From positions 1 to 64,000 of the forward strand of contig JACNKN010000066.1 of assembly GCA_014382015.1 (NCBI GenBank): 64,000 nt of DNA, read 5' to 3'. This DNA comes from Fidelibacterota bacterium. GTDB taxonomy: Bacteria > Fidelibacterota > Marinisomatia > Marinisomatales > TCS55. Under the pieces are notes generated by a model. The model saw only the letters and a program-made list of their open reading frames with translations. It had not been told where the DNA came from and did no database searches. The stretch's first letter is position 1; every line of letters starts with the position of its first letter. Shown here in pieces: positions 27,370 to 42,520 of this stretch. A program made the translations under genes and the position numbers.

Positions 27370-27795
27370 TTAATTAACTATCTTTTGATAAATCCATTGC
27401 AGGAAGGAGATTAAGGAGTATAGTAAAATGATATATCCGGATTTTTTCATGGACCATAAGATTGAATTCCAATCAGCCAGATTACCCGCACCGTTATCTT
27501 GAATAATAATAAATCCTAAAACAATTACAATGGCCGCAAATGGTATCTTTTTACTACTAAATAAATGTTTGTCAATTAAAGCAGACGGACTTTCTGCAAA
27601 AGATTCATTTACCTTCTGTGGCTCGCCTATTTCTGGGACAGTAGTGGCATCTTGTAACACCCAAGAGCCAGATGATGGTGTGTCAAGTTCCGAATCAGGC
27701 CCTGATGTTTTATTTGGGAAGTAAGTTAATTCTGAAGATGAAATCTCCTGGCGTCGAATCGATTTAATTTTTGCTGCATATTTCCTTTTTGGCAT
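27370..27795 (-). CDS. small membrane protein of unknown function
   Basis: A 141-aa protein. The N-terminal 80 residues are basic then polar and low in complexity (Ser, Glu, Pro rich). The C-terminal part holds two hydrophobic helices (about 84-100 and 113-135) ending in a short basic tail. No family is recognised. The gene lies 2 bp downstream of the TIGR04255-like gene and is the last gene of the first accessory operon. Confidence 0.6.
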   Translation of the reverse strand: MPKRKYAAKIKSIRRQEISSSELTYFPNKTSGPDSELDTPSSGSWVLQDATTVPEIGEPQKVNESFAESPSALIDKHLFSSKKIPFAAIVIVLGFIIIQDNGAGNLADWNSILWSMKKSGYIILLYSLISFLQWIYQKIVN

Positions 27796-27797
27796 TA

Positions 27798-28511
27798 TTA
27801 ATCTTCAAATATTAGATCAATAATTTTTTGGTGTTTTGCCCAAGATTCAGAGGCAAAAGTTGAAATAAGATCAAACAACTTTTCATCTGATACTATATTG
27901 TGAGGTTTTTGCCAATAATCAATGTCTATATATAGACCAACTTCGGGAAGCGTCCCCTGAATATTTAGAAATTGATGCGCCTGATCCTCCTTCATTGGCC
28001 CACTCTGGGTGTTGAAGTTCCCATGCTTCTCATTAAAATTTAGTGAGCCTCCAATATCTACTAGCTTGGCCCCCATAATAGTTTTTAATTTTTCTGACAT
28101 CATTAAATATCTTGATTCGTATCGAGAACAGAGTTCATCAAATCCCTTGGTAAATTCGGTATATGATTTTTGTCTTACACCAATTCGATCAACTTGAAGA
28201 GGAGTATTAAAACCATCTAACCCCATAATAAATTTTAAAAATTTTAATGTTCTATCTGGAAAATAATGCGCGGTGGGTACATCATTACTTATAAAACCTG
28301 CACTATTAAAACCAACGAAAGCTCGATTTTTTGATGATTTATCAAAAATATCTAAACGATTCTGTATAATTCGCCACTCGCTAAGTTCCATAACATCAGA
28401 TATTTTTTCTGCCCAAGTTCCTCTGAGATCCAATATCTTTGGATTGGCTTTATATCTGATTTCAAAGATTAATTCGTTTAGTGTTATGGGATCTTTACTT
28501 TTATTTTTCAT
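27798..28511 (-). CDS. TIGR04255-like protein
   Basis: A 237-aa soluble protein that resembles the TIGR04255 family, described as sporadically distributed and of unknown function. The opening LNELIFEIRYKANP and the central DRIGVRQKSYTEF are the parts that suggest it. No catalytic motif is visible. Its ATG overlaps the TGA of the 56-aa ORF upstream (ATGA), so the two are translationally coupled. The family call is moderate. Confidence 0.5.
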   Translation of the reverse strand: MKNKSKDPITLNELIFEIRYKANPKILDLRGTWAEKISDVMELSEWRIIQNRLDIFDKSSKNRAFVGFNSAGFISNDVPTAHYFPDRTLKFLKFIMGLDGFNTPLQVDRIGVRQKSYTEFTKGFDELCSRYESRYLMMSEKLKTIMGAKLVDIGGSLNFNEKHGNFNTQSGPMKEDQAHQFLNIQGTLPEVGLYIDIDYWQKPHNIVSDEKLFDLISTFASESWAKHQKIIDLIFED

Positions 28512-28678
28512 TTAAAATACCTCACATATTGTATAATCCCATTCATGATCTGTACCATATGTTTTTTTGAGTATTCATTGACAAGTTGTGCGTTGCTAAC
28601 AATCATGGTGGAGTTAATCCTCCTATTATCGGAAAGGACAATTACAAGTTTATCCTTCAAAACTATCTCAGCAGTCAT
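28508..28678 (-). CDS. 56-aa small protein
   Basis: A short ORF with a good ribosome site (GGGAG, 7 nt before ATG), almost the same leader as the SNase-like gene before it, and an ATGA overlap with the gene after it. The product is basic and mixed, with alternating Val/Ile at the start (EIVLKDKLVIVLSD) and a helical end. No homology is recognised. Translation signals and coupling make it a likely real gene. Confidence 0.65.
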   Translation of the reverse strand: MTAEIVLKDKLVIVLSDNRRINSTMIVSNAQLVNEYSKKHMVQIMNGIIQYVRYFK

Positions 28679-28731
28679 AACTTTCTCCCTTTATTAAATA
28701 ATGCATAGTTCATTGAAATATACAGTCCATA

Positions 28732-29004
28732 TTAAAGTACAGATATTGTTGCCACAATTCTTTGATACACATCTCTGGATTTTATCGTGCATCTAACTTC
28801 TTTACCATTCAACCTTTTCTCTAATGCTTGTTTTGCTTCTAAACCACCAGGCTCATCCAACTCTGAAGAATTTTTTCCCGCAATTCTTATCCTCTCATTA
28901 TCATTATATTCGTAAACATTATTATTTCCAATGTGGGTTACTTCAATATCAAACGTATCGCCATCAATAACCTTAGTTACTGGTCCACTTATTGTATCTG
29001 CCAT
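28732..29004 (-). CDS. short staphylococcal-nuclease-like protein
   Basis: A 90-aa protein covering the SNase (thermonuclease) barrel. VIDGDTFDIEV supplies the calcium-binding Asp, RIRIAG the first catalytic Arg, and RDVYQRIVA the second. The position of the second calcium Asp in the usual GIDAPE motif is Asn here (GKNSSEL), while the catalytic Glu appears retained. It has no signal peptide and stops soon after the barrel strands, shorter than full SNase domains, so nuclease activity is uncertain. A clear GGGAG ribosome site precedes it. It is 15 bp downstream of the GIY-YIG-like gene. Confidence 0.65.
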   Translation of the reverse strand: MADTISGPVTKVIDGDTFDIEVTHIGNNNVYEYNDNERIRIAGKNSSELDEPGGLEAKQALEKRLNGKEVRCTIKSRDVYQRIVATISVL

Positions 29005-29019
29005 AATATTCTCCCTTAT

Positions 29020-29313
29020 TTATGGATTACTCATTGATGTCTTTTTATAGACATACACCTTCTTTGAATTTTCATCACCGCCGCCAGGGCCCCCGTCTAT
29101 TCCCCGATCTAAAAAGTATTTTTCAATTTCTCTAGCATCACTGACTGTGATTGCTTCACGATATATCCAAATATCATGATCAGTTGAAATACCATGATCC
29201 CCAAATAGCCGAGCTCCAATGTTGGCAGTAATCCCAACATAGTAATCACTATAAACAGCACCTTTTAAATAGTTTTCAATGGCATTGATAATCTTTTTTT
29301 TTGTGAACGACAT
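29020..29313 (-). CDS. GIY-YIG-like small protein
   Basis: A 97-aa protein with a pattern reminiscent of compact GIY-YIG domains. YYVGITANIGARLFGDHG resembles the first motif with its conserved Arg and His, the middle carries REIEKYFLDRGIDGG with the acidic metal-ligand position, and GGGDENSKKVYVYK ends the domain. A nuclease role is a hypothesis only. It is the first gene of the accessory operon that is preceded by dyad site A; no Shine-Dalgarno site is visible. Confidence 0.5.
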   Translation of the reverse strand: MSFTKKKIINAIENYLKGAVYSDYYVGITANIGARLFGDHGISTDHDIWIYREAITVSDAREIEKYFLDRGIDGGPGGGDENSKKVYVYKKTSMSNP

Positions 29314-29344
29314 TTTATTATTTTATTTAAATATTAACTAAATA

Positions 29345-29387
29345 TTATCCTACCCTTGTCATCAAATACAATAGAGTACATTACTCA
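29345..29387 (-). promoter_or_regulatory. regulon site A: dyad plus -10 of the GIY-YIG/SNase operon
   Basis: The dyad GAGTA-CAT-TACTC (29375-29387) is followed on the minus strand, after 24 bp, by GATAAT (29350..29345), a -10 hexamer. The predicted start near 29338 leaves a 25-nt leader to the ATG at 29313. Dyad centre near -43, a typical activator position overlapping -35. Flanks AATA and ATTTTT are shared with site C. Confidence 0.7.
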
Positions 29388-29435
29388 TTTTTTACTATAA
29401 AATAGAAAAATGTTGTGATAAAAATTCGGTCATAA

Positions 29436-30098
29436 TTAGTAATCATTTATAATCCCACTGTTCATGGCATAGCGGGTCAGTCCGGCCACATCGTGTATAT
29501 CCAATTTATTCATAATATGTTGTCGATGATTGGCAACAGTTCTTTTATCGATTGACAATAATTTTGATATTTCAGGGGTGCTGTGACCCTCGGCAACAAG
29601 TTGAAGCACTTCTCTTTCTCTTGTTGTCAATACTTGCTTTCTTTCACCTTTCTTTTTCCCGAGTGACTCCGCCAGTTTTCGATAGCCGTCCAAAACAGAT
29701 TGGGACACAATTGAGCTAAAATATGCTCGGCCCATATTGATCTCATGAATTGCTGTAAAAATTTCTTTAGATGCTGATTTTTTTAATACATAACCATTAG
29801 CGCCAACTTCTATGGCGCTACGGATATACTCTTCATCAGAATACATGGAGAGAATTATTATTTTTATTTTTGGAAATTCCTTTTTGATCTGCCGCGTTGT
29901 TTCAATTCCATTTAAAATGGGCATACTCACATCCATGATTACAATATCAGGGTTCAGTTCTTTTACTTGTTTAATAGCAACTTTGCCATCTTCTGCTTCA
30001 CCAACAACTTCAATTTCAGAATCAGAATCCAATAATAATTTAAATCCCTCCCTTACGATAGCATGATCATCAGCTATCAATACTTTTATTTTTTCCAT
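29436..30098 (-). CDS. NarL/LuxR-type response regulator
   Basis: A 220-aa two-component regulator. The receiver domain (about 1-120) has Asp10/Asp11, phosphoacceptor Asp56 in VIMDVSMP and Lys106. The C-terminal LuxR-type helix-turn-helix (about 155-218) begins LTTREREVLQLVAEG. It lies 38 bp downstream of the histidine kinase, its obvious partner, with AAGGAA as ribosome site. I infer it binds the dyad sites found before all four accessory operons, including its own. One half of the dyad, TACTCAT, matches the NarL heptamer consensus TACYYMT. Confidence 0.93.
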   Translation of the reverse strand: MEKIKVLIADDHAIVREGFKLLLDSDSEIEVVGEAEDGKVAIKQVKELNPDIVIMDVSMPILNGIETTRQIKKEFPKIKIIILSMYSDEEYIRSAIEVGANGYVLKKSASKEIFTAIHEINMGRAYFSSIVSQSVLDGYRKLAESLGKKKGERKQVLTTREREVLQLVAEGHSTPEISKLLSIDKRTVANHRQHIMNKLDIHDVAGLTRYAMNSGIINDY

Positions 30099-30136
30099 TA
30101 TATTTTCCTTAGAATTGATTTGTTATAGATCATAGT

Positions 30137-30964
30137 TCACGATTCCCCCAAAGGAATATCAATTTTAAGGGTAGTGCCGATCTTTTCTTTAGATAATATT
30201 GTAAATTCACCACCTACACTCCATACACGTTCTTGGATGCCCTGTAAACCCAATCCTCCATTTTCGGGCTTTACTACCATTTTATTATCAAGATCAAAAC
30301 CAGATCCGTCATCTGTAATTCTCAATAAAACTGATTTCTTTTCCCGGTAGATGTTGATAATTACTTTTTGTGCATCAGCATGTTTGGCCACGTTATTTAA
30401 AGCCTCCTGCATCACACGGTATAGGGTAGTTTTAATTTTATCATCAAGATTATAAATTGAATCTTCATCATTTAATTCAACATCAATACCTGTCCGATTT
30501 ATGAATCCCCTGATGTGAGTCCTAAAAGCCTGAAAAATCCCCAGGTTATCTAGAACAGAAGGACGTAATTCATAAGAAATACGATGAACATCATCTATCG
30601 TTTTATCGATGAGATTCTGACAATCCATAATCCATTTATCCAAATCTTTTGTTTTTCCATTTTTATTAATCAGTTCTAAATTTAGACTAATAGCAGTTAA
30701 TGTCTGTCCAATTTCATCGTGTAGATTCCGGCTGATTCTAACCCGCTCCCTTTCCTGAGTATTTCTTAATTCATTAGATAGAATTTTTAGCTTCTCCTTT
30801 TGTATTCGAAGTGTTTCAGATAATTTTTTATACTTTTTTTCTGAATCTATCACCAATTTTAATTTTTTTTCTTTTTCCTTTAAGAGTCTTTTTTGACTTA
30901 TCCCAACTCCGGTAATAATAATTATGGAAAATGAAAGAAATACCAAAGTACCAATTATCAACAA
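30137..30964 (-). CDS. sensor histidine kinase, HisKA_3 (NarX/DesK-like)
   Basis: A 275-aa kinase with a single N-terminal membrane helix (about 3-22), a coiled coil (about 25-75), phosphoacceptor His82 in LHDEIGQ and an ATPase domain with N-box EALNNVAKHA (about 187-196), DDGSGF and NGGLGLQG (about 235-242). There is no extracellular or cytoplasmic sensor domain, so the signal must come from a partner, most likely the polytopic membrane protein encoded 11 bp upstream. The best start in frame is TTG at 30964. No ATG is available upstream, so the N-terminus is uncertain by some residues. Confidence 0.9.
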   Translation of the reverse strand: MLIIGTLVFLSFSIIIITGVGISQKRLLKEKEKKLKLVIDSEKKYKKLSETLRIQKEKLKILSNELRNTQERERVRISRNLHDEIGQTLTAISLNLELINKNGKTKDLDKWIMDCQNLIDKTIDDVHRISYELRPSVLDNLGIFQAFRTHIRGFINRTGIDVELNDEDSIYNLDDKIKTTLYRVMQEALNNVAKHADAQKVIINIYREKKSVLLRITDDGSGFDLDNKMVVKPENGGLGLQGIQERVWSVGGEFTILSKEKIGTTLKIDIPLGES

Positions 30965-30975
30965 CCACCAAAATT

Positions 30976-31590
30976 CTATCTGTGTCTTAATAACAAAAAT
31001 CCTTTTGTATAAAACAAGTTGGACACAATCGATAATAAACTATGAAACATCCAAGTGCTAATCAGTATAGTACTGCTTAAGGCAAATAGCACCAAGTTCC
31101 CTGAAAAGCATATCAAAAATCCTGAAGTAATCCAGAAAACAGACCTTGTTTGGTTAATCTTATCACCTTCTTTTAAAAGGTTTATAAGTATGTATGAAGA
31201 TACTATTATTAAAATTGCACTTGATAATGAACTTGAAAAATTATCAAATGAAGATAGATCCTCCAAAAACAACTTAAACAATATCCAAATAATTGAATAT
31301 ATAGCGATAACAAAGTTTATTATCCGTGTTGATTTCGCTGACGGTTGCCAGCAAGCTAATATGGCCATAATAAATACAAATTCAATTAATGTATAAAAAT
31401 GGAATACCACCATATTGTTGATTCCCCTGCTCGCTAATATCAAATTAACGATTGTAGTACCAAACGAAAATATCAAGAACAGAAAAAAGAGTTTATGCCC
31501 CCTTCCTATTTTCTTATAACTATATAAAGCCACAATAATAGGAAAGAGACCTGACACCTCTGCTATCTTTATTATTAATGGTATAGTCAA
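30976..31590 (-). CDS. polytopic membrane protein, candidate sensor partner
   Basis: A 204-aa inner-membrane protein with about six to seven hydrophobic helices and almost no loops. No family with known function is recognised. It starts at TTG (31590), because an in-frame stop lies just upstream. It sits between the 104-aa protein (9 bp) and the histidine kinase (11 bp) that lacks its own sensor. By position it is the probable membrane signal receiver or anchor of this two-component system. Confidence 0.65.
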   Translation of the reverse strand: MTIPLIIKIAEVSGLFPIIVALYSYKKIGRGHKLFFLFLIFSFGTTIVNLILASRGINNMVVFHFYTLIEFVFIMAILACWQPSAKSTRIINFVIAIYSIIWILFKLFLEDLSSFDNFSSSLSSAILIIVSSYILINLLKEGDKINQTRSVFWITSGFLICFSGNLVLFALSSTILISTWMFHSLLSIVSNLFYTKGFLLLRHR

Positions 31591-31599
31591 TAATTATTC

Positions 31600-31914
31600 T
31601 TAACTATTTAATTCATTCTCTTCACCACAAAATGGCGGGCAAGCTCTATCTCTCTCTGCCAAAAGACCTTCAATTAAGTCATTTTCCATATCATCTACAC
31701 CTACTAAAACTGGCTCAGGCGTTCCATTATCTGCTTCTCCAAAATAGATTCTTATTCCCACACAACTCTCCTGATCCAAGATTTTTTGCAATGTATCTTT
31801 TCCAAAAAAACCTCCTTTTTTTGCTCCTTCCCCGGCTTTACTTCTATAATTACGGGTAAGTTTGGCCGCTTCTTCTAACGTAATTGAATGATCTTCATTT
31901 CCTGTGAATGACAT
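31600..31914 (-). CDS. 104-aa conserved small protein with CPPFCG end
   Basis: A soluble protein without signal peptide. Features are ITLEEAAKLTRNYR near the start, GGFFGKDTLQKILDQESCVGIRIYFG in two adjoining blocks in the middle, VLVGVD, and a C-terminal CPPFCG with two cysteines. I recall similar small proteins of unknown function in Bacteroidetes but cannot name a family. AGGAG precedes the ATG by 8 nt. It is the first gene of the operon with the membrane protein, kinase and regulator and is preceded by dyad site B. Confidence 0.7.
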   Translation of the reverse strand: MSFTGNEDHSITLEEAAKLTRNYRSKAGEGAKKGGFFGKDTLQKILDQESCVGIRIYFGEADNGTPEPVLVGVDDMENDLIEGLLAERDRACPPFCGEENELNS

Positions 31915-31984
31915 AATCTAACTCCTTTATTTGGTTTTTAAGACATTATCTGTATATCCGTTATTTCAATCATAATTGAAATCA

Positions 31985-32029
31985 TTTATAGGTTCATATA
32001 CCTATTAAAACTATTGAGTGACGATACTC
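31985..32029 (-). promoter_or_regulatory. regulon site B: dyad plus -10 of the two-component operon
   Basis: Plus-strand GAGTG-ACGA-TACTC (32016-32029) is the four-base-spacer version of the dyad. On the minus strand TATAAA (31990..31985) follows after 25 bp. The predicted start near 31978 gives a leader of about 64 nt. An extra half-site AATAGAGTA lies at 32036-32044. If the local regulator binds here the operon is autoregulated. Confidence 0.62.
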
Positions 32030-32102
32030 AGGAACAATAGAGTAAATGCCCTATTTCCATGATTAGCAAAATGGACAGTTGAAAACAAATCAGCATTGCC
32101 TA

Positions 32103-32258
32103 TTATATGTCAGGGTATTTTACCCTTACTTCATTATCTGCATCTTGCTTGATCTTATTAATGTCCGTTTCACTTAAGTTGACCGCTTCGGATAACTTTT
32201 CAACATATTTTTCCAATAAGATAACTCTTTTTAGCAATTCGCCTGTACGAATATTCAT
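32103..32258 (-). CDS. 51-aa small protein, paralogue of the 42-aa ORF
   Basis: A charged, helical, coiled-coil-like peptide that begins MNIRTGELLKRVILLEKYVE and continues through SEAVNLSETDINKIK. Over the first 40 residues 31 are identical to the small ORF at 36753-36881. Both follow, by 36 bp, a gene ending in a near-identical C-terminal sorting domain. A weak purine-rich ribosome site (GAGAGAAG) precedes ATG. No double-glycine or signal peptide is present, so it looks cytosolic rather than an exported bacteriocin-like precursor. Function unknown. Confidence 0.7.
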   Translation of the reverse strand: MNIRTGELLKRVILLEKYVEKLSEAVNLSETDINKIKQDADNEVRVKYPDI

Positions 32259-32570
32259 TTTCTTCTCTCATTTCTTATTAATTGTAAGGATGCTTTATTT
32301 AAGCAATACCATTTTATTAGTTTCCGTGAAGGTCTGCCGACTTTCTTTTGATTCAGCCGTCATTTTCAGCAAATACATGCCTGCCGGTACTTTGTTGCCA
32401 TTTTTATCGGTGGCATCCCAGGTTTTACGTTTATATCCGGCAGACTCATTACCATTGGTCCAACGGGTAACTTCAATTCCCCTTAAATCATAAATAACCA
32501 GGGTAACTGAACTGGCTTCCGGCAATTCATATTTTATTGTAGTGGTGGGGTTAAAGGGGTTGGGGTGATT
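32103..32570 (-). repeat. duplicated sorting-domain + small-ORF module, copy 1
   Basis: The last roughly 90 codons of the subtilase, the 36-bp spacer (AATTAATAAGAAATGAGAG shared) and the 51-aa ORF are strongly similar in DNA to 36753-37195. The similarity stops upstream of the NPFNP sorting domain, so the module rather than the whole gene was copied. Confidence 0.75.
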
Positions 32571-34319
32571 CTGTTCCAAAGCAAATTTGTCGGGAATTAG
32601 ATTGTTAACATCCGTAATCTCATTCTGCATTTTAAAGAAGCTATATCCCCATACAGAGACTGAATTAGAAGGATTAGACTCACCATTATTATTCACAGCA
32701 GTGACCTGATAATAAAAATCTTCAGCTTCCCAATCGTTTGGGTTTCTTATTTCAAGGGTGCCATCAATATAGGTGGTTGATGATGAACTTCCCAATAAAA
32801 ACCAATTGGGATCCCAAGAAACGCGACGATAAACATTGTACGAAGTTGCCCCCGTACTTGTTTGCCAACTCAATATCGGGGAATTTCCGATACCATTGGG
32901 ATTGGTAATGACAAGGCTGGTGGGTTGGGCAGGTAATGATATAAAAATTAATGCATCATGAGCATTCACACGACCGTAACCCATTTTGTTATTCCAGATG
33001 CCGTAGGTCTTATTTTGGTTATAGCTATAAATATCGGTCCTGACTTTTTCGGCTGTACTGGCTATGATTTCCTCAATATCACTATTTGTGAGTGTCGCAT
33101 CAAAAGATTTTAAAAGAGCGGCAATGCCTGCCACTTGGGGAGCTGCATATGAAGTTCCACTGCCGGTACCATAAGTATCATTTTTACGAGTGCTCCAAAT
33201 ATCGACACCTGGCGCAACAACATCCAAAGTAGTCCCATAATTTGAAAAGGACGCTTTCAAATCACTTTTGCCTGAAGCACCAACTGCGAAAACATTCTGT
33301 ACACTGGCAGGGTAACTTACTGTAGATGAATAGCTATTACCTGAGGAGCAATCAATAAAAACCCCATAAGTATTGTGTGCCGATGCAATCGCTAAATTAA
33401 TTGCGGATGATTGACCTACGGACAAGCTCATAGTTATAATATCAACGCCCATGTATGCAGCATAAAGAATTGCATCATCAAGAATTGATCCATCTGGATA
33501 GGAATCGCCAACACCCGCGATAAGCATTTTAGAACCACTTGAAGAACCCCATCCTCCCGCAACACCGGCAACACCAATGCCATTATTGGTAACTGCACCG
33601 GCAATACCAGCCACATGAGTACCATGATAAAATGGGCCATTTACGTCATTATTGTCGTTGTGCCAATCCCAGCCCACTAGGTCATCTACCACACCATTAC
33701 CATCGTCATCTATGCCATTAATGTCTGCCATATCCCAGACTACACCATCATTATTTATATCCTCTCCGGGATTGACCCATATATTTTTTTCGAGGTCTTC
33801 GTGGAGTACATCTGTACCACTGTCTAATATACCAATGGTGACATTGGGGGATCCCGTTTCAATATCCCATGCATTCGGCGTGTCAATATCATAGTCCTGC
33901 GGATGTTTATGGTGCCATTGGTTAGTAAACAATGAATCATTGGGGATGCCAATGTATTCACCAAATGTATTCGCCTCTGCAATTTCAATCAATGGGGATT
34001 TAAGGTAGGCCTGTACTTTCATAAGAGGATCCGCTTTTGAGAGAATTTTGACATCGATAAACCCCAAAATATTCTTATGCAGTACTCGAACGTTTTGGGA
34101 TTTGTTGAATCCGTCTATCGCCTGCTGGCTTACCTCTTTCTTAAACCTTAAAGTAATTACCGAATTGTTGACTCGGAAACGGCTTCCATTTTCCACTCGG
34201 TACCATTGGCCATCTGTTTTCTCATACTGGCGGTTATTCAGGGACATTTTTTGAGCAGCTACCGTACTCGGTCCCAGGATGCTAATCAATATCCCGACTA
34301 TTATTGCTGTGTGTTTCAT
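32295..34319 (-). CDS. secreted subtilisin-like protease with C-terminal sorting domain
   Basis: A 674-aa S8 peptidase. From the ATG at 34319 (AAGGAG 8 nt upstream) a signal peptide runs to about residue 23 (TVAAQ). A propeptide-like segment is followed by the catalytic Asp in GILDSGTD, His in YHGTHVAGIAG and Ser in GTSYAAPQVAG. A fibronectin type III-like domain and a C-terminal sorting domain with HPNPFNPTTT and a final KMVLLK complete it. The tail type is known from type IX-like secretion in FCB bacteria, so the protein is probably exported across the outer membrane. It is 101 bp downstream of the beta-propeller gene and 36 bp upstream of the 51-aa ORF. Confidence 0.92.
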   Translation of the reverse strand: MKHTAIIVGILISILGPSTVAAQKMSLNNRQYEKTDGQWYRVENGSRFRVNNSVITLRFKKEVSQQAIDGFNKSQNVRVLHKNILGFIDVKILSKADPLMKVQAYLKSPLIEIAEANTFGEYIGIPNDSLFTNQWHHKHPQDYDIDTPNAWDIETGSPNVTIGILDSGTDVLHEDLEKNIWVNPGEDINNDGVVWDMADINGIDDDGNGVVDDLVGWDWHNDNNDVNGPFYHGTHVAGIAGAVTNNGIGVAGVAGGWGSSSGSKMLIAGVGDSYPDGSILDDAILYAAYMGVDIITMSLSVGQSSAINLAIASAHNTYGVFIDCSSGNSYSSTVSYPASVQNVFAVGASGKSDLKASFSNYGTTLDVVAPGVDIWSTRKNDTYGTGSGTSYAAPQVAGIAALLKSFDATLTNSDIEEIIASTAEKVRTDIYSYNQNKTYGIWNNKMGYGRVNAHDALIFISLPAQPTSLVITNPNGIGNSPILSWQTSTGATSYNVYRRVSWDPNWFLLGSSSSTTYIDGTLEIRNPNDWEAEDFYYQVTAVNNNGESNPSNSVSVWGYSFFKMQNEITDVNNLIPDKFALEQNHPNPFNPTTTIKYELPEASSVTLVIYDLRGIEVTRWTNGNESAGYKRKTWDATDKNGNKVPAGMYLLKMTAESKESRQTFTETNKMVLLK

Positions 34320-34420
34320 TAGGTCACTCCTTTTAAAGTAATTTGAATGTTCATAATTCATTAGAAATACTATTGTTCGGTCGACGGTGGGCGAATATGC
34401 ATAAAACCTTTGGCCATTAA

Positions 34421-36739
34421 TTATTTCAAAAGGGTTATTTTACGGGTCATAGTTGCTTGGCCACTTTTCAGTCGGACAAAAAAAACGCCACTATGCACCA
34501 GCCCGCCTTCATCACTATTGCCATCCCAAAATACCTTGTGCGTTCCCCTTGAAAAGGTGTGTTCGGAAAACCTTTTTACCACCTTTCCGGTTAAATCAAA
34601 AATTGTCATTTCGATGTTACCAGCATTTGGTAGATTAAAGGTTAACACTGTACTACCGTTAAAGGGGTTCGGATAGGCCGGGTATAAATAAAATGATTCG
34701 GGTACGAGTGTATTATCAAATTCATTAATCCCTAAAACAATACGATCTCCTCCCCAGACACCCATACCATTGGTCCCCAAGTAAATCATGCCGGTTATAG
34801 GGGAGAAATAAATGTCATTTATCCGGAGGTAGTAGGGCCCCGGTACAGATTCCCAGGTCATTCCCCCGTTGGTGCTGGAAAAAAGTCCCTGATCCATTGT
34901 GCCCAGTAATAAGTGGTTAGGGTTTTCCGGGTTAATGAAAATCTTAGACATGCGAGTTGAAGTAATTCCCGTCCGAACTTCTTGGAATGTTTGTCCTCCA
35001 TCCTTTGATAGATAGATAGTGGATTTTTTATCGGCCGAGCCCGTGGCAATATAGATGTTATTTGAATTTGAGGGGTCCATCGCTATGGAAATCACTGCAC
35101 CTGGGTCCGATACTTTTTTCCAAGTAGCACCGCTATCTGTACTTTTATATAGCCCATGGACCTCCCAATTCCCTCCTGCTCCAAAATATATAACTCTGGT
35201 GTCTACCCTATCTATTGCGATATCTTCAATCCAAAATGAACTCCCAATAGGGGGATTTGTAGAAAAGGATTCGTTCCAGGTATTGCCGTAATCTATGCTT
35301 TTATATATAGTTGAAGGATAGGTTCCTGCAAATAGGATGTTGGCGCTGTCGGGCCGAATCTCTAAAGCGGTAATTCTACCAGCATTAATTTTTTCTCCGG
35401 TCTCACCGCCGTCATAGCTACGTATGAGACCAAGATCTCCACCGCCCCAATACACGGTATCCGGATGGTCCGGGTTTACGGCTATGGCATTTACCTGATC
35501 CGTATTTAAACGCCGCCAACTTTCGCCGCCATCTATGCTTTTCCACATTCCCTGGCGGCCCCCCGCATACACAATGGCGGGATTGTTTGGGCTGACTTCC
35601 ACATCGTTTATATAGGTGTTAATCATTCCCTGTTCCTGTAACCTGACGGTCTGGCCCCCGTCATCAGACCGGTAAACACCTGCCTCGCTACCAATAAACA
35701 GGGTGTTTTGGTCAAGTTGATTTGTAGCTGTGCTGGGACCTGTTCCCAGAAATACCCCCAGAGGATAAAATGGCATATCCACAGCTATGGTCTTCCAGGT
35801 TCTCCCATGATCCATACTTTTTCGCATTGAATTCCCATGGATAATATATAAGTTCCAGAACGTATCAGCATATAAACCCAGTACCGTCTCCCAGGGATTT
35901 GTCATGTCAGGGTAAAAAGTCCAGGTGCTGCCGCCATCTGTGGAGTGGCCCAGTAGCCATTGAAGAAATCCTGTATGAACCACACTCCACAATTTCTGGG
36001 GGTTATCCGAATCAATCTGGAGGTTATAAAAGGAATACGCATCGGAAACCGTTTCCCAGGTTTGACCCCCATTCCCACTGCGGAGTAAACCCCAGGCAAA
36101 GAGTGAATCGCCTGCGCTGGTTACACCCGTATATAAGGTAGAGGGATTGCCCGGTTCATGGTTGATCGTGGTCAGCCTGTAGGTTTTTCCTGAAGGGACC
36201 CCTGGAACCAGGGTCCAGTTATGCCCGCCGTCCGCGCTTTGATACAGGCCCCCGTTTGGGTACTCTAGTCCGCAGAAAAGAATGGACGTTGTATCGGGAT
36301 GCAGCCACAGGTCGGTTACTATCGCTGAATCGGGGAGTCCCCCGTTCGTTGGCGCCCAGGTCTCGCCTCCATTATAGGACTGGGCAATCCCGCCCCCAGC
36401 GGTGCCGGCATAAATATGACCCGGGGCCTGGGGATGGATACGAAGACTTGTCACCGGGTAAAAATCCCCAGACCACCAACTGGGTAAAGGGGACCCAACG
36501 ATGGTGAAGTCATCCCAGACAGGAAACCCGTTGTTCGTAGGTTCCCAACTTTGGGCACCGTTTACACTTTTAAAAATTCCGCCTCCATAGGTGCCGGCAT
36601 ATACAATGTTGGTGTCCGGCGAGTCGATGACTAATGCCGTAATATATCCACCGAAAGGGCCGTTATTGTTCCAGGTTTGGGCTGATATACCAGAACAGCA
36701 AAAAAATAGAAAAGTTGATTTACGTATAAATTGGTACAT
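34421..36739 (-). CDS. secreted Asp-box beta-propeller protein with sorting domain
   Basis: A protein of about 772 aa made of some thirteen Asp-box/BNR-type turns (S-x-D-G-G-x-T-W and variants), as in sialidase, VPS10 and YCF48-like propellers, followed by a C-terminal sorting domain (YPNPFNGST). Sialidase catalytic residues are not evident, so a binding or scaffold role is as likely as an enzyme. I start it at ATG 36739, which opens a signal peptide (MYQFIRKSTFLFFCCSG) just after the 42-aa ORF; an upstream in-frame ATG at 36796 would overlap that ORF. A few blades are degenerate (GGETGEK, GGQTVRL). Confidence 0.85.
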   Translation of the reverse strand: MYQFIRKSTFLFFCCSGISAQTWNNNGPFGGYITALVIDSPDTNIVYAGTYGGGIFKSVNGAQSWEPTNNGFPVWDDFTIVGSPLPSWWSGDFYPVTSLRIHPQAPGHIYAGTAGGGIAQSYNGGETWAPTNGGLPDSAIVTDLWLHPDTTSILFCGLEYPNGGLYQSADGGHNWTLVPGVPSGKTYRLTTINHEPGNPSTLYTGVTSAGDSLFAWGLLRSGNGGQTWETVSDAYSFYNLQIDSDNPQKLWSVVHTGFLQWLLGHSTDGGSTWTFYPDMTNPWETVLGLYADTFWNLYIIHGNSMRKSMDHGRTWKTIAVDMPFYPLGVFLGTGPSTATNQLDQNTLFIGSEAGVYRSDDGGQTVRLQEQGMINTYINDVEVSPNNPAIVYAGGRQGMWKSIDGGESWRRLNTDQVNAIAVNPDHPDTVYWGGGDLGLIRSYDGGETGEKINAGRITALEIRPDSANILFAGTYPSTIYKSIDYGNTWNESFSTNPPIGSSFWIEDIAIDRVDTRVIYFGAGGNWEVHGLYKSTDSGATWKKVSDPGAVISIAMDPSNSNNIYIATGSADKKSTIYLSKDGGQTFQEVRTGITSTRMSKIFINPENPNHLLLGTMDQGLFSSTNGGMTWESVPGPYYLRINDIYFSPITGMIYLGTNGMGVWGGDRIVLGINEFDNTLVPESFYLYPAYPNPFNGSTVLTFNLPNAGNIEMTIFDLTGKVVKRFSEHTFSRGTHKVFWDGNSDEGGLVHSGVFFVRLKSGQATMTRKITLLK

Positions 36740-36752
36740 ATAGAAAAACTTA

Positions 36753-36881
36753 CTACCCAATAGCTTCTTCTTTGATCTTTTTAATGTCCTCTTCACTTAA
36801 GTTGACCGCTTCGGATAATTCTTCAACATATTTTTCTAAAATAATCACTCTTTTTAGTAATTCACCCATACTAATACTCAT
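36753..36881 (-). CDS. 42-aa small protein, paralogue of the 51-aa ORF
   Basis: MSISMGELLKRVIILEKYVE continues through SEAVNLSEEDIKKIKEEAIG and stops. It has a good ribosome site (AGAGG, 6 nt before ATG) and lies 36 bp after the trypsin-like protease and 13 bp before the propeller gene. It is highly charged and predicted helical, with Leu/Ile spacing compatible with a coiled coil. Conservation of the peptide with its paralogue, including conservative changes (L/I, T/E, N/K), argues that it is translated. Function unknown. Confidence 0.72.
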   Translation of the reverse strand: MSISMGELLKRVIILEKYVEELSEAVNLSEEDIKKIKEEAIG

Positions 36882-37195
36882 ATTTTCCTCTCATTTCTTA
36901 TTAATTTAAAAGTCACTTTATTTGAGCAGTACCATTTTCTTAGTTTCAGTGAAAATCTCACGACTTTCTTTTGATTCAGCAGTCATTTTCAGTAAATACA
37001 TACCTGCCGGAACTTTATTGCCATTTTTATCGGTGGCATTCCAGGTTTTGCGTTTATAACCCGCAGATTCATTTGCCGTACTCCATCTGGTGACTTCATT
37101 ACCTTTTAAGTCATAAATGACAAGGGTAATAAAACTGGCTGCAGGCAATTCATATTTAATTGTGGTAGTTGGGTTGAAGGGGTTCGGGTAGTTTT
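36753..37195 (-). repeat. duplicated sorting-domain + small-ORF module, copy 2
   Basis: Counterpart of 32103-32570. The C-terminal sorting domains (YELP, LVIYDL, SAGYKRKTW, KNGNKVPAGMYLLKMTAES), the spacer and the small ORF align throughout, while the protease domains upstream belong to different families (trypsin-like here, subtilisin-like there). Confidence 0.75.
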
Positions 37196-38864
37196 GGGAC
37201 AATGCATAGGACTCAGGCAACATTAATATTTTAGGGTCAAATCCGCCGCCGCTGCCATAGGTAACATATTTTGTTGCTTCAGTTGTTTCCCCGCCCTTTG
37301 TCATAACAACCTTTAATGTGAAATTTGTATTAATCATTTTATCATCATGGGAGCTACCAGTTCCCCGAAATGACCAGGTACTCACACCATCTTCTTTCTT
37401 GTACCATTTGTATGTTGCTGAATCATTCGGATATCCTCCAGTCTGGTTTGCACTAAATGTTCCCGTAACTAAAAATCCAAGCGAGGATGGTCCGGTGACA
37501 AAAACACCTATCGGTGAGACGCTTAAGCCATTAAGTATTGTAGCCCCAGTATTATTTGGATCTAGCCAATTTTTTAACTGGGAGGATGAACTCCCCCCAT
37601 AATCCCAAGACATAGAAAATTTACCGTAATATGTCCCTTTTAATGAGTCACAAGGATCATATCCATTCCCTGCATGATCCTGTCCTATAATTCTATTATT
37701 TAGATCAAATAATGGTGACCCTGATGATCCAGGTTCTGTTGATCCAGTTTCCCAATCTATCACATACCAATGCGAATTCGTTGGTGTATTTGTAACATAA
37801 GAAGATATAGCATAATCGTTATCTATGGATAATTTTTTTATATCACCTTGTGGATGATGGATTCCAACTGAAGATTGTGGTGCTGTATTAATGTTTGACC
37901 AACCTGCAAGATATACATTATATGATGCAGGCGGTTTTTGGCTGAGTTCCAATAAAGCGAAATCTGAAGCACTATTATTTGCTTTTAGGGTCATCCCTGA
38001 AATTGCATTCGGTGTAGGCGAAGTATATGGATTTGAGCAACTTGCACTTTCATAGTTAAACCATACAAGCCAAGTATTCTGATACCCATCCAAACAATGG
38101 TTTGCAGTTAAAAAATAGGGTGTATAGTTATTATTAACATTATTAACGATTGCTCCAGAACACCATTCGGTACCGCCATTTGTTATTATCAAACCGACTG
38201 ATCTTATCATGTTATCATATGTTTCATCATAACACCTTGCATTTACTTCACAAGATGCGGCATCTCCAAATCCTACAATTTTAGTTCGTTTTATTTTATT
38301 TTGGGCAAATTTAAATATGTCTTTATAGCCATGAATAATCCTCGAAATCTGAATTACACCTTTCTTTTTCATGTTTTTGGGTTCATAGTATTCCAAAATT
38401 GTAATGGGACCATCAACTAAAGAAGTCGAGAACTTGCCGTATTCTTTATTATTTCTTTCGGTAAATGCACCTAATACCATACTTTTAGTGGGATTATATA
38501 AAAAAAGAGTGGCCCCCGGCGGTAGCCAAAATTGATCATATATCAGGTTAATTGAAAAAGCCCCAGGCGCAAAAATATTTAAGCGCCATACACGGCCTCC
38601 ATCAGGGAGTGTTTCCCAGACGCCTGAATTATCCAAATTGTAGGAAACATCAAACCCATACCCAAATCTATAAGGTGTATCTGATGTTGCCTTTTTATCT
38701 TCATTGGTCAATGAATCGACATTTACAGTTTGCATGGTTAAAACAGGCACATCTTTTTCCAAAGAGATAGAAAAGCTTTTGGGTTCACCATTCACACTTA
38801 TTTGACCATTTAGAAATACAATTCCAAATATCCCAATAATAAACTTTATTAATTTGACCTTCAT
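36918..38864 (-). CDS. secreted trypsin-like (lysyl-endopeptidase type) protease with sorting domain
   Basis: A 648-aa chymotrypsin-fold peptidase. A signal peptide (about 1-20) and an N-terminal propeptide region with jelly-roll-like character precede the protease domain. This has catalytic His in LTANHCLDG, Asp in SDFALLEL and Ser in EPGSSGSPLFD, with cysteines spaced as in Achromobacter-type lysyl endopeptidase. A PKD/Ig-like stretch and the C-terminal sorting domain (YPNPFNPTTT) follow. It lies 31 bp after the META-like lipoprotein and 36 bp before the 42-aa ORF. Export beyond the outer membrane is inferred from the tail. Confidence 0.9.
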   Translation of the reverse strand: MKVKLIKFIIGIFGIVFLNGQISVNGEPKSFSISLEKDVPVLTMQTVNVDSLTNEDKKATSDTPYRFGYGFDVSYNLDNSGVWETLPDGGRVWRLNIFAPGAFSINLIYDQFWLPPGATLFLYNPTKSMVLGAFTERNNKEYGKFSTSLVDGPITILEYYEPKNMKKKGVIQISRIIHGYKDIFKFAQNKIKRTKIVGFGDAASCEVNARCYDETYDNMIRSVGLIITNGGTEWCSGAIVNNVNNNYTPYFLTANHCLDGYQNTWLVWFNYESASCSNPYTSPTPNAISGMTLKANNSASDFALLELSQKPPASYNVYLAGWSNINTAPQSSVGIHHPQGDIKKLSIDNDYAISSYVTNTPTNSHWYVIDWETGSTEPGSSGSPLFDLNNRIIGQDHAGNGYDPCDSLKGTYYGKFSMSWDYGGSSSSQLKNWLDPNNTGATILNGLSVSPIGVFVTGPSSLGFLVTGTFSANQTGGYPNDSATYKWYKKEDGVSTWSFRGTGSSHDDKMINTNFTLKVVMTKGGETTEATKYVTYGSGGGFDPKILMLPESYALSQNYPNPFNPTTTIKYELPAASFITLVIYDLKGNEVTRWSTANESAGYKRKTWNATDKNGNKVPAGMYLLKMTAESKESREIFTETKKMVLLK

Positions 38865-38894
38865 GATTAGCTCCTTATTTACTTTAGTTTATAA

Positions 38895-39323
38895 CTATTT
38901 AAAAACTAGTTTTGATTTTCCATCTTCATAGAATAAGACTAATTCATTACTCACTATTTGAAATGAATCGGTAATATTAATGGCACTAAGATAAAGGGTT
39001 TCGTGAGAATAATAATCGCCACAATACTTTTCAGTCACGGTTAACATTTTAAATTTAAGGTTCTCTTTTTTATCGGACTCATAATAAGCTGAAAGAATAT
39101 TACAATTCACTTGCCCAGTAATTGTGTAGTCTTCAAAAAATTCAAGCGTATATACTTCATCTTTGTTTACTTGCACTTTATCTTCATCTTTAGGTTCGAT
39201 AGATTTGAGTACCCATTCATGGCCCGTAAGTTTGGTGACACCATTGTTTTGGTCGCAACTTGAAATAAACACCAATATTGAAAAATATATCATAGCTCTT
39301 TTCACAATGCATTTAGTCTTCAC
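38895..39323 (-). CDS. META/HslJ-like lipoprotein
   Basis: A lipoprotein of about 142 aa with a basic N-terminus, hydrophobic stretch and lipobox FISSC. The mature part resembles the META domain (TGHEWVLKSI, YTLEFFEDYTITGQVNCN, VTEKYCGDY), small beta-barrels of unknown binding role. I place the start at GTG 39323, because AAAGGAA lies 7 nt before it and the leader from the site-C promoter is then 25 nt. An in-frame ATG at 39341 would leave a leader of only about 7 nt. It is the first gene of the six-gene exported-protease operon. Confidence 0.72.
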   Translation of the reverse strand: MKTKCIVKRAMIYFSILVFISSCDQNNGVTKLTGHEWVLKSIEPKDEDKVQVNKDEVYTLEFFEDYTITGQVNCNILSAYYESDKKENLKFKMLTVTEKYCGDYYSHETLYLSAINITDSFQIVSNELVLFYEDGKSKLVFK

Positions 39324-39354
39324 TTGGGCAATTCCTTTCATTTAGTAACCGGAT

Positions 39355-39397
39355 TTTATATATAAATATTCTAAAAAGTAAATAGAGTAAAGTACTC
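39355..39397 (-). promoter_or_regulatory. regulon site C: dyad plus -10 of the exported-protease operon
   Basis: Perfect dyad GAGTA-AAG-TACTC (39385-39397), with the minus-strand -10 TATAAA (39360..39355) beginning 24 bp beyond its edge. The flanks (AATA left, ATTTTT right) equal those of site A. An additional half-site TTTACTCAT lies at 39415-39423. Confidence 0.72.
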
Positions 39398-39520
39398 ATT
39401 TTTGTATGGTCTGATTTACTCATATAAAATATTCATTTTTGACTCGAGTAGCATCACTTCGAATTATCCTTTTAATAGAATCATCAAAATTCTTATGGTC
39501 TATTATACTTACCCCAAAAT

Positions 39521-39564
39521 GAGTAATTCACTCTATATACACTAATTCGTGAAGGGCTTATATT
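39521..39564 (+). promoter_or_regulatory. regulon site D: dyad plus -10 of the C39-like operon
   Basis: GAGTA-ATT-CACTC (39521-39533) with TATATT (39559-39564) 25 bp downstream. It faces the plus-strand operon and, read in the direction of transcription, has the same orientation as sites A and C (AAAATGAGTA first, ACTCTAT second). The divergent 281-bp region 39324-39604 therefore holds two oppositely oriented copies for the two operons. Confidence 0.68.
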
Positions 39565-39604: not shown

Positions 39605-40165
39605 ATGAACAAAATTAAAGTATTTCAAAAAGCGGCCATCTTAGGATCGGCTCTTTTTATAATGATTCTATCTTATTTTGTGGGTACAAACCCACTCGTT
39701 ATTCAATATCATATAATTGGATGGAATAAACTCCCTTCAGATAACTCAAATATAATATATCAACAAACCCATAGTGATTGTGGCCCGGCGGCACTTGCCA
39801 ATATTTTTCAACATTATGATATTCCTTTTAATTTATCAAATATCGCTGAAGAAGCCGGTACAGATTCAATCGGCACCTCATTAAAAGCACTAAAAAGAAT
39901 AGCCATCAAAAAAGGCCTGAATGCGGAAGGATGGAAATACAATTGGAAAGACTTTAATTCTTCTCAAAAACCGGTTATAGCATTCATAAATGGTAATCAT
40001 TTTGTCATGATTGAAAAATCAAATGATGAAACAGTTGTGATGGTTGATCCATCCAGAGGTCGATTAAAAATGAAAGCGGAAAAATTTAAAAGAATTTGGC
40101 AGGGAGAAACTCTCCAAATAGCGCGGGCAGAGCCAAACGACCCTGCCCGAATCAAAGCAGAGTGA
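39605..40165 (+). CDS. membrane-anchored C39-like cysteine peptidase
   Basis: A 186-aa protein with one N-terminal membrane helix (about 12-30) and a C39-type papain-fold domain. It has an oxyanion Gln in QQTHSDCGPAAL, the catalytic Cys in the same motif, His in GNHFVMI and Asp in MVDPSRG. C39 domains cleave leader peptides, usually as part of an ABC exporter; here the domain stands alone, with the bulk outside the cytoplasm by inferred topology. No transporter or double-glycine peptide is nearby, so its substrate is unknown. No strong ribosome site precedes ATG. First gene of the plus-strand accessory operon. Confidence 0.82.
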   Translation: MNKIKVFQKAAILGSALFIMILSYFVGTNPLVIQYHIIGWNKLPSDNSNIIYQQTHSDCGPAALANIFQHYDIPFNLSNIAEEAGTDSIGTSLKALKRIAIKKGLNAEGWKYNWKDFNSSQKPVIAFINGNHFVMIEKSNDETVVMVDPSRGRLKMKAEKFKRIWQGETLQIARAEPNDPARIKAE

Positions 40166-40248
40166 AGCATGGGGCTTCTACTCGCTCTAACATGGTGGAA
40201 ATTAACCCGAATAATGGGCGAACTCCTACCGCAACTAAAGGAAATAAC

Positions 40249-41421
40249 ATGAAACAAATAATGTTATTCATTCTGTTCACTATATTATTAGTCGTGACAG
40301 GATGTGAAGATAAAGTAAAAAGTCATGATGAGATACAAGAGTCATCATCACAAAATCATTCAATACCTATAGGGTCTTGGAAAAAACTAGCACCAACCTA
40401 TGAACAGCAATTAAAGGAACTTGCTAAAGCTGTAGCAAAAGCGTTAGAAGTGCCAGAAGTTGCATCCTATCTCAAGGAGGAGATTGGAAAGAAGTTTGAT
40501 GGAGATTACGAGGTATTGTGGAAGGATGTAAAAGACCATCCATTTGTAGGAAAAGGTAATCTTCGTACTATAGTCGCCAATCATTTGGATAATCAATCTT
40601 ATTCAATTGAGGACATTGAACAAGTGCCTAAATTACAAATTGCCCTACCAGTGGGATTTGAGGAATGGGATGGTACGACACCCATTAAAGTAGCTTACAC
40701 GCCGCTGACGATTGATGATACTGAAATAGAAGTGATTAATGCCTATGATGCGTCGGGCAATCAATATGAACTTAACGCTAAGATTCCCCCAGACTTTACA
40801 TTGATGGCAGTTAGCATTAACGAAAGAACAGATGCAAACGGTAATGTAACATACTATGCGCCTAATCAGGATATTTATACGGGTGCAGAACAAAGTGTAC
40901 CTGGTGATGGCGATGATGAAGGCGGCGGCGGTGGTGGCGGAGGTGGCGGTAACTCCTATCACTGGCAAAAACTCTATGAAGTTAGGTCTCGGGACTACAA
41001 GGAACCATTTATAAAAGGAGATCCGGAGGTACGTTTAAAGTATATTGGTTTTGCTAACGGTACTGCCCAAGTAACGAACACACATAATCTAGATACGGTA
41101 TTTGATACTTATTGGCATTGGCATATATTTCTTTTTGGTGAATGGCATTATGACCATGATTGGCATGATCTGGATAGAAATCTTTTTATCAGGAATGCCT
41201 CATCATATGGTGATGGAATTGGAATGTATTGGTACGAATATGACGGTGGTGACGATTGGACCTTTTCGGTTAATTTTGGAAGTTCTTTTTCTGTCAATTT
41301 AACGATTAAGGATGGGGATGATCCAATGGGTCATGTTTTAGTTCCATATAACTATTCATCCCAATCACGATCAGAGGCATTTGATACTGGTGATATTTTA
41401 TTCACTATGTATCATCATTAA
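40249..41421 (+). CDS. large lipoprotein with polyglycine linker, unknown function
   Basis: A 390-aa protein with signal peptide and lipobox VVTGC (Cys19). AAAGGAA lies just before the ATG at 40249; a longer in-frame reading back to 40096 runs inside the C39 gene and is rejected. About residues 20-215 form one domain with a PVGFEEW segment near 133 and PPDFTLMAVS. A run of ten glycines (about residue 226 on) leads to an aromatic, aspartate-rich C-terminal domain (HWQKLYEV, WHDLDRNL). I do not recognise either domain. A strong terminator follows. Confidence 0.75.
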   Translation: MKQIMLFILFTILLVVTGCEDKVKSHDEIQESSSQNHSIPIGSWKKLAPTYEQQLKELAKAVAKALEVPEVASYLKEEIGKKFDGDYEVLWKDVKDHPFVGKGNLRTIVANHLDNQSYSIEDIEQVPKLQIALPVGFEEWDGTTPIKVAYTPLTIDDTEIEVINAYDASGNQYELNAKIPPDFTLMAVSINERTDANGNVTYYAPNQDIYTGAEQSVPGDGDDEGGGGGGGGGGNSYHWQKLYEVRSRDYKEPFIKGDPEVRLKYIGFANGTAQVTNTHNLDTVFDTYWHWHIFLFGEWHYDHDWHDLDRNLFIRNASSYGDGIGMYWYEYDGGDDWTFSVNFGSSFSVNLTIKDGDDPMGHVLVPYNYSSQSRSEAFDTGDILFTMYHH

Positions 41422-41442
41422 TTGAAGAATGAATATGTTTAT

Positions 41443-41472
41443 AAAACCGTAGTGTTTAATCACTGCGGTTTT
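41443..41472 (+). terminator. hairpin terminator after the large lipoprotein gene
   Basis: AAAACCGTAGTG and CACTGCGGTTTT form a 12-bp stem (one G-U pair) with loop TTTAAT. The T's of the 3' arm supply the U-tract when the A's melt. It can work in both directions in principle and separates the lipoprotein gene from the barrel gene. Confidence 0.85.
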
Positions 41473-41584
41473 ATGATTAATTGAATTTTGGGCAAGTTTA
41501 TTTAAATAATTACAATCACATCAATTAATTTCTCTAAATGAAGCTGTCCAATTAAACATTAATATCATAAGAATGGAGTTAGTT

Positions 41585-42103
41585 ATGAAAAAAATCAAAA
41601 TGTTAATACTTTTATTAATTTCAACTTTAGTATATGCTCAAAATTCTAAGTTTGAGAAAAGTTCACTACCTGTTCAACACAGTGTATTTGTTGAGCTTCT
41701 TGGGAATGGCTTTCTTTACTCGGTCAACTTTGAAAAATATATTAAACACAATGTATCTATTCGAGCAGGTGGTATGGGGTTTTCTAAATCAGGGGTTACA
41801 AACAAGAATCAACGAGCAAAAGTAGGTATGTTCCTCATGCCTGTCATGGCAAATTATTTAATGGGCAATCATAATCATAAAATGGAGTTTGGTGTAGGTC
41901 CACTATTTTTTTATGTATCGACAACAAGTATAGATATAAAAGAGATTAATAATATCCATGGGTTTGGAGTTAGAGCTACCGCGAGAATGGGATATGTTTA
42001 TCTTCCCCAAAATGGCGGATTAACTTTCAGATTAGCATATACACCACTTATGACTGATGTTTTTTCCCATTCAGTGGGGCTTGCTTTAGGATATTCATTT
42101 TAA
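41585..42103 (+). CDS. small outer-membrane beta-barrel-like protein
   Basis: A 172-aa protein with a signal peptide ending LVYAQ and alternating hydrophobic/polar strands with aromatic girdle residues, ending in a Phe (LALGYSF), as in outer-membrane barrels. I chose ATG 41585 because GGAG lies 7 nt upstream and the signal peptide starts MKKIKM. Size suits an eight-stranded barrel or a surface protein of that kind. It follows the terminator, so it may have its own promoter as well as read-through. Confidence 0.72.
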   Translation: MKKIKMLILLLISTLVYAQNSKFEKSSLPVQHSVFVELLGNGFLYSVNFEKYIKHNVSIRAGGMGFSKSGVTNKNQRAKVGMFLMPVMANYLMGNHNHKMEFGVGPLFFYVSTTSIDIKEINNIHGFGVRATARMGYVYLPQNGGLTFRLAYTPLMTDVFSHSVGLALGYSF

Positions 42104-42106
42104 ACA

Positions 42107-42520
42107 ATGAGAAATAATAAAAATATTCGTCTATCCATTGTAATTGCATTTTCGATGTTTTTAATCATGAATAATTATGGCTGTACACCAGTATCTCATG
42201 TGATTGTTGGAGAATTAAGATCCCCAGCTGATCCGTCCCAAGTGAAAATATATTTAGATTACCCTGAAAAGTATGATAAAATTGCCTTAATTGAAGCTTC
42301 GAGCAAACTTTCATTTGCAATTACAGATCAGGGTAAAATGAATAAAGTAATTGACCGTTTGAAAAAAGAAGCTGGAAAATTAGGTGCTAATGGAGTTGTA
42401 TTAGAAAACACAGACAATGAGTCGGATGTAAGGGTTGCCCAAAACTTGCAAACCAATACAATTATCGTTTCCAACAGCAGTTATAAGATCGGAACCGCTA
42501 TTGCTATTTTTGTAAAATAA
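42107..42520 (+). CDS. small lipoprotein of unknown function
   Basis: A 137-aa protein with a signal sequence and a lipobox-like NNYGC near residue 26. The mature part includes KYDKIALIEASS and a helix ending AGKLGANGVVLEN, a pattern I have seen in small bacterial lipoproteins without known role. It follows the barrel gene by 3 bp and converges with the minus-strand gene after another 3 bp. Confidence 0.65.
   Translation: MRNNKNIRLSIVIAFSMFLIMNNYGCTPVSHVIVGELRSPADPSQVKIYLDYPEKYDKIALIEASSKLSFAITDQGKMNKVIDRLKKEAGKLGANGVVLENTDNESDVRVAQNLQTNTIIVSNSSYKIGTAIAIFVK

Follow-up and report, generated by a model that had tools for sequence, protein, structure and literature searches.

The window analysed here, a stretch of 64,000 nucleotides, is part of the 155.6-kb contig C60 of a 2.54-Mb genome (G000) from an uncultured member of the Neomarinimicrobiota. 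Its region from 27.4 to 42.5 kb contains an operon encoding p104, TM204, a histidine kinase and a response regulator, together with a protease operon, a C39 peptidase operon and a group of small genes. The sister species Ca. Neomarinimicrobiota BH1 (G005), the nearest relative compared that carries the system, was used for comparison. The genes and units of the region are the following:

27370..29313 (-): unit A, encoding GIY-YIG-like (97 aa), SNase-like (90 aa), 56-aa, 237-aa and 141-aa proteins; not conserved in G005
29436..30098 (-): NarL/FixJ-type response regulator, candidate activator (Response_reg and GerE domains); 87% identical in G005
30137..30964 (-): histidine kinase (HisKA_3 and HATPase_c domains)
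30976..31590 (-): TM204, hydrophobic protein without Pfam match; accompanied by p104, kinase and regulator in G005, G013, G020, G046 and elsewhere
31600..31914 (-): p104, first gene of the operon; uncharacterised small family without Pfam match
32103..39341 (-): unit C, encoding a META-domain protein, a trypsin-like protease, a 42-aa protein, a BNR/sortilin protein, an S8 protease and a 51-aa protein
39605..42520 (+): unit D, encoding a membrane-anchored C39 peptidase, a Gly-rich lipoprotein, and 176-aa and 137-aa proteins

The three large proteins of unit C end in Por_Secre_tail/FlgD_ig domains, and the C39 peptidase of unit D is 76% identical in G005. Next to C39 orthologues in other genomes we observed proteins of ~85-100 aa with a signal peptide, GG and a Gly-rich hydrophobic tail (L050:7358-7630 in G005, L251 in G059, L243 in G113), which resemble bacteriocin-type C39 substrates; no obvious protein of this type was seen in the window.

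Each of the four transcription units is preceded by a GAGTA-type dyad and a -10-like hexamer:

29344..29349 (-): -10-like hexamer GATAAT of promoter A, beginning 24 bp past the dyad edge; TATAAA at equal distance in G005
29370..29390 (-): predicted operator A, 21 bp, AAATGAGTAATGTACTCTATT, core dyad 29374-29386; identical in G005 (L049:16182-16202)
31985..31990 (-): promoter B, -10-like hexamer TATAAA, starting 25 bp beyond dyad B; kept in G005
32016..32029 (-): dyad B, doubtful, GAGTATCGTCACTC, preceding the p104-TM204-kinase-regulator operon; not kept in G005
32036..32056 (-): second, weak element on the upstream side of B, AAATAGGGCATTTACTCTATT, 14.9 bits, in the chance range; its CTCTATTG part is kept in G005
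39355..39360 (-): promoter C, -10-like hexamer TATAAA, starting 24 bp beyond the dyad
39381..39401 (-): predicted operator C, AAATGAGTACTTTACTCTATT, core 39385-39397; G005 counterpart at L050:5258-5278
39517..39537 (+): predicted operator D, AAATGAGTAATTCACTCTATA, core 39521-39533; identical in G005
39559..39564 (+): promoter D, -10-like hexamer TATATT, starting 25 bp beyond the dyad; G005 has TATGTT, also at 25 bp

The sequence-only reading had proposed these four dyads as the mark of a regulon of four operons. All four dyads are present, with exact coordinates for B, C and D and with A one base lower than given there; the hexamers do begin at distances of 24, 25, 24 and 25 bp from the dyad edge (A, B, C and D, respectively), and the window holds no further exact copy. 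Read along transcription, A, C and D have in common AAATGAGTANNNNACTCTAT preceded by an A-tract. Dyad B shares with them the core only, the spacing between its halves being one base longer and its flank different.

Other features of this intergenic DNA were also observed. Promoter B has an inverted repeat, TTTCAATTATGATTGAAA (31950-31985), behind its -10; this repeat is almost unchanged in G005 and may be a further operator or an RNA hairpin. Between operators C and D, positions 39398-39520 show ~90% identity between G000 and G005, exceeding that of the outer promoter spacers, and include a lone half-site, ATATGAGTA, at 39405-39425 (-). Within the G005 cluster, a weak related site (ATATAGGGTGTTTACTCTATTG, L050:2660-2710), with TAATAT 26 bp on, precedes a gene for a 340-aa lipoprotein-like protein; it resembles the weak element at 32036-32056.

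Rarity and conservation of the dyads

Across the 2.54-Mb genome, the pattern GAGTA-N4..6-ACTC occurs ~14 times, including four times in this region; seven of the eight other places examined lie within open frames of at least 90 aa, and one lies outside. The 21-bp form AAATGAGTANNNNACTCTATT was searched with a threshold of at most one mismatch in 245 genomes of the phylum. As the consensus was built from A, C and D, site E (see below) and the relatives are the only independent tests. This search gave four matches in G000 (A, C, D and E) and four in G005, and the remaining 243 genomes together gave four, versus nine for the reversed control. Matrix scores in the window were 30-31 bits for A, C and D and 14.9 bits for the next best, with top scores of 11-20 in twelve first-order Markov copies. 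The many equally good genomic sites that would speak against a regulon were not seen, the sites being rare genome-wide. When the shorter form was searched over the whole genome with two mismatches, matches beyond A, C, D and E stayed at control level, and in the search for further regulon members at two to three mismatches they were not commoner than in the control. Matches with two mismatches in contigs C68 and C86 were followed and led nowhere, and an exact match in G036 is isolated, within the chance rate, with a poor hexamer (TATCAA) ~24 bp away.

Sites A, C and D stand at homologous places in G005. Over the four site pairs (A, C, D and E), 81 of 84 bases are identical between the two species (A 21/21, C 20/21, D 21/21 and E 19/21), and a -10-like hexamer remains 24-25 bp from the sites. 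In the 20 bp between site and -10, identical positions number 9 for A, 19 for C, 6 for D and 10 for E, that is, 25 of 60 for the spacers of A, D and E; sites A, D and E are therefore clear footprints. Operator C adds little as a footprint, since the DNA around it is conserved throughout. At site A, another small gene follows in G005, and the dyad and its 24-bp distance are kept although the downstream gene has been exchanged. Conservation in a relative that keeps the operons is thus borne out for A, C and D, in one close relative. On the contrary, dyad B is not kept in the G005 alignment (~7 of 14 bases), where the -10 and the upstream CTCTATTG are, which rules B out as a conserved operator. 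Autoregulation through dyad B is therefore unsupported. Of the four dyads, three (A, C and D) almost certainly function as operators.

The genome scan with the motif revealed a further target outside the window, whose gene content matches that of the units within it:

C60:110630-110650: site E, found by genome scan and not by reading

In G000, site E precedes a gene for a 360-aa BNR lipoprotein, and in G005 the exact motif (C76:1529) precedes the orthologous gene, encoding 347 aa. An S8 protease gene with a like sorting tail follows in both species. Units C and E are alike in make-up, with a BNR protein and an S8 protease, to which unit C adds the trypsin-like protease. Site E has a poor -10 (TAGCTT) in G000. 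Site E is the strongest single argument for a secreted-protease regulon. Of the regulon of four operons first proposed, A, C and D stand and E is added, while B, with its dyad not kept in G005, drops out. As judged from sequence comparison, AAATGAGTA-N4-ACTCTATT is very probably the operator of one regulon.

A second META-trypsin pair in G000 is seemingly split over two contigs (L253 on C31 and L254 on C54), and its protease is ~75% identical to that of the window. No dyad was found at this pair, so paralogues are not all in the regulon. The C39 gene of G059 is internal to an operon and has no dyad.

The two-component operon and the candidate binder

The response regulator contains a receiver domain (PF00072, 7.9e-31) and a GerE domain (PF00196, 8.4e-17), with D10, D11, D56, S84 and K106, the phospho-acceptor Asp and switch residues, conserved in the alignment. 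The receiver takes the place of the N-terminal autoinducer-binding domain of LuxR quorum-sensing regulators, which is absent. Among proteins of solved structure, the closest relatives of the regulator are VraR and NarL, VraR being the nearer. No other full NarL-type response regulator was found in G000, and no other is common to both genomes, the one further NarL-type regulator of G005 being without close counterpart in G000. The regulator lies within the cluster in both genomes. In other genomes of the family, no orthologue above ~50% identity was found, and the motif occurs at most once in each of them; the co-occurrence of regulator and motif has little power because the system is present in two genomes only.

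Of the 245 genomes of the phylum, 13 contain p104, usually with TM204 as the next gene and often with kinase and regulator as well. In G185, G187 and G193, p104 is preceded by an N-terminal extension resembling a lipoprotein signal. The predicted p104 structure had a pLDDT of 47 and was set aside. In genus g2 (G013 and G020), the p104-kinase-regulator promoters carry a different palindrome, ATAGGCTC-TT-GAGCCTAT, 25 bp before TAATAT, with one mismatch in G020; it was found at no other promoter there. The g2 regulator is 50% identical to that of the window, and its recognition helix differs (TVQRHREKIM versus TVANHRQHIM), as a changed operator would require. The p104 promoters of G046, G048, G059 and others have no dyad at equal distance from the -10; those of G048 and G059 have in common AATACTC-N-AGTATT further upstream.

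From these comparisons, the NarL/FixJ-type regulator at 29436-30098 is likely to be the binder of the sites. The link drawn by the sequence-only reading to this protein is strengthened, circumstantially, by its being the only NarL-type regulator in both genomes and by the g2 palindrome at equal distance from the -10. Its argument from the NarL heptamer carries little weight, since the orientation and spacing of the half-sites differ from the 7-2-7 layout. It is possible, although rather doubtful, that the dyads are real operators of one regulon bound by another transcription factor encoded elsewhere, with the NarL-type regulator acting on other sites. Such a factor would agree with the lack of conservation of the dyad at the regulator's own promoter and with half-sites outside the classic NarL layout, and the dyad would suit several kinds of dimeric regulator. 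Against it stand the position of the only shared NarL-type regulator inside the cluster in both genomes and the g2 regulator operon, with its dyad at the same distance from the -10.

Promoter geometry and proposed mode of action

TATAAT scores over all offsets peak at 24/25 bp past the dyad, with 35 of 48 versus a mean of 24 for eight sites (best-offset shuffle P = 0.0065; sites paired between the species do not count as independent, and only the single-base content was preserved in the shuffle). The bases at the place of the -35 are poor (TATTGT, TATTTA and TATATA), and the TATTG shared next to some sites could be what remains of a -35 and not part of the operator. When the hexamers are taken as -12 to -7, the dyad centre falls near -43/-44. 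The earlier placement of the dyad near -43, as for an activator, is in agreement with this centre. Class II promoters have a weak -35 and a single site near -41.5 to -45, at a constant distance from the -10; the position and the 24-25 bp spacing seen here would fit this pattern, on assumed transcription start sites.

On balance we favour the full explanation in which the dyad is an activator operator serving at least four units, with the NarL/FixJ-type regulator as its putative binder. The operator would span about -33 to -54, abutting or overlapping the poor -35 region, at activator-dependent promoters of sigma-70 type whose -10 boxes lie 24-25 bp away from the dyad core. The regulator would be activated by the adjacent kinase, of which TM204 is the probable membrane partner. 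At least four units would be controlled in G000: C (trypsin-like and S8 proteases, BNR), D (C39, lipoproteins), A (variable small genes) and E (BNR lipoprotein and S8). The predicted outcome is an induced secretion of surface proteases. Rarity, conservation, spacing and common functional content were computed; the binder and the outcome are what we infer.

We consider it unlikely that the dyads bind a repressor covering the -35 region. The position near -43 is compatible with repression, and a site at -43 can also block polymerase, but a good -10, a weak -35 and a fixed distance of 24-25 bp are typical of class II activation. Highly improbable is chance similarity or a leftover of intergenic DNA duplication: the motif was chosen after being seen, and B is probably of such kind, but A, C, D and E have only the dyad in common and not the flanks, the motif is rare over 245 genomes, and E was found outside the training region and in two species, which contradicts this origin for all four sites. 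That the dyads are RNA hairpins or terminators, as inverted repeats in intergenic DNA might be, is scarcely conceivable with a 5-bp stem, no U-run and a position upstream of the -10 of the gene preceded, which contradicts it.

Relation to known systems

The 7-2-7 operator of NarL is TACYYMT-N2-AKRRGTA, in which TAC occupies the outer ends. In the present sites TAC is on the inside, and the half-sites are reversed in direction and 3 bp apart; no link to nitrate was seen. The sites appear closer to the LiaR type, in which an A-tract is combined with an inverted repeat: in the S. mutans LiaR site, an inverted repeat of 16 bp comes after the A-tract (PMC4447274). The layout here, AAAAAT-GAGTA-N3-TACTC, is similar while the bases differ, and VraR proteins are the best solved relatives of the regulator. 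On the other hand, the half-site is not that of the LiaR/VraR systems of Firmicutes (TCAGHCTnnAGDCTGA for CesR), the targets here are secreted proteases, and no gene like liaF or vraT of the LiaFSR/VraTSR systems was recognised, TM204 having no Pfam match. E. coli NarL activates from a site abutting the -35 and centred at -44.5 (PMC7419079), and the promoters concerned (yeaR-yoaG and ogt derivatives) share with those described here the regulator fold and an operator that abuts the -35. A two-component system tied to Por_Secre_tail proteins recalls PorXY-SigP of Porphyromonas gingivalis, in which control of the T9SS machinery genes runs through an ECF sigma factor (PMC4800418); the present system differs in having a LuxR-HTH regulator and cargo genes.

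As a two-component activator acting at class II promoters, the proposed mechanism belongs to a known kind; the regulon and its operator are new, and the underlying principle is familiar. In the paper library searched, no paper on a regulon in Neomarinimicrobiota was found. A wider proposal, improbable as it stands, is that p104, TM204, kinase and regulator form a mobile signalling cassette, with an operator re-tuned per genus (GAGTA in g1 and GGCTC in g2, at the same distance from the -10), which would couple a cell-surface signal, perhaps a peptide cut by C39, to the secretion of surface proteases.

For a little-studied phylum, the system yields a named operator, a candidate regulator and at least four target units. 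If the proposed activation is true, it would be a way in which free-living Neomarinimicrobiota turn on secreted proteases, and a NarL-type system would be able to control cargo with T9SS-type sorting domains.
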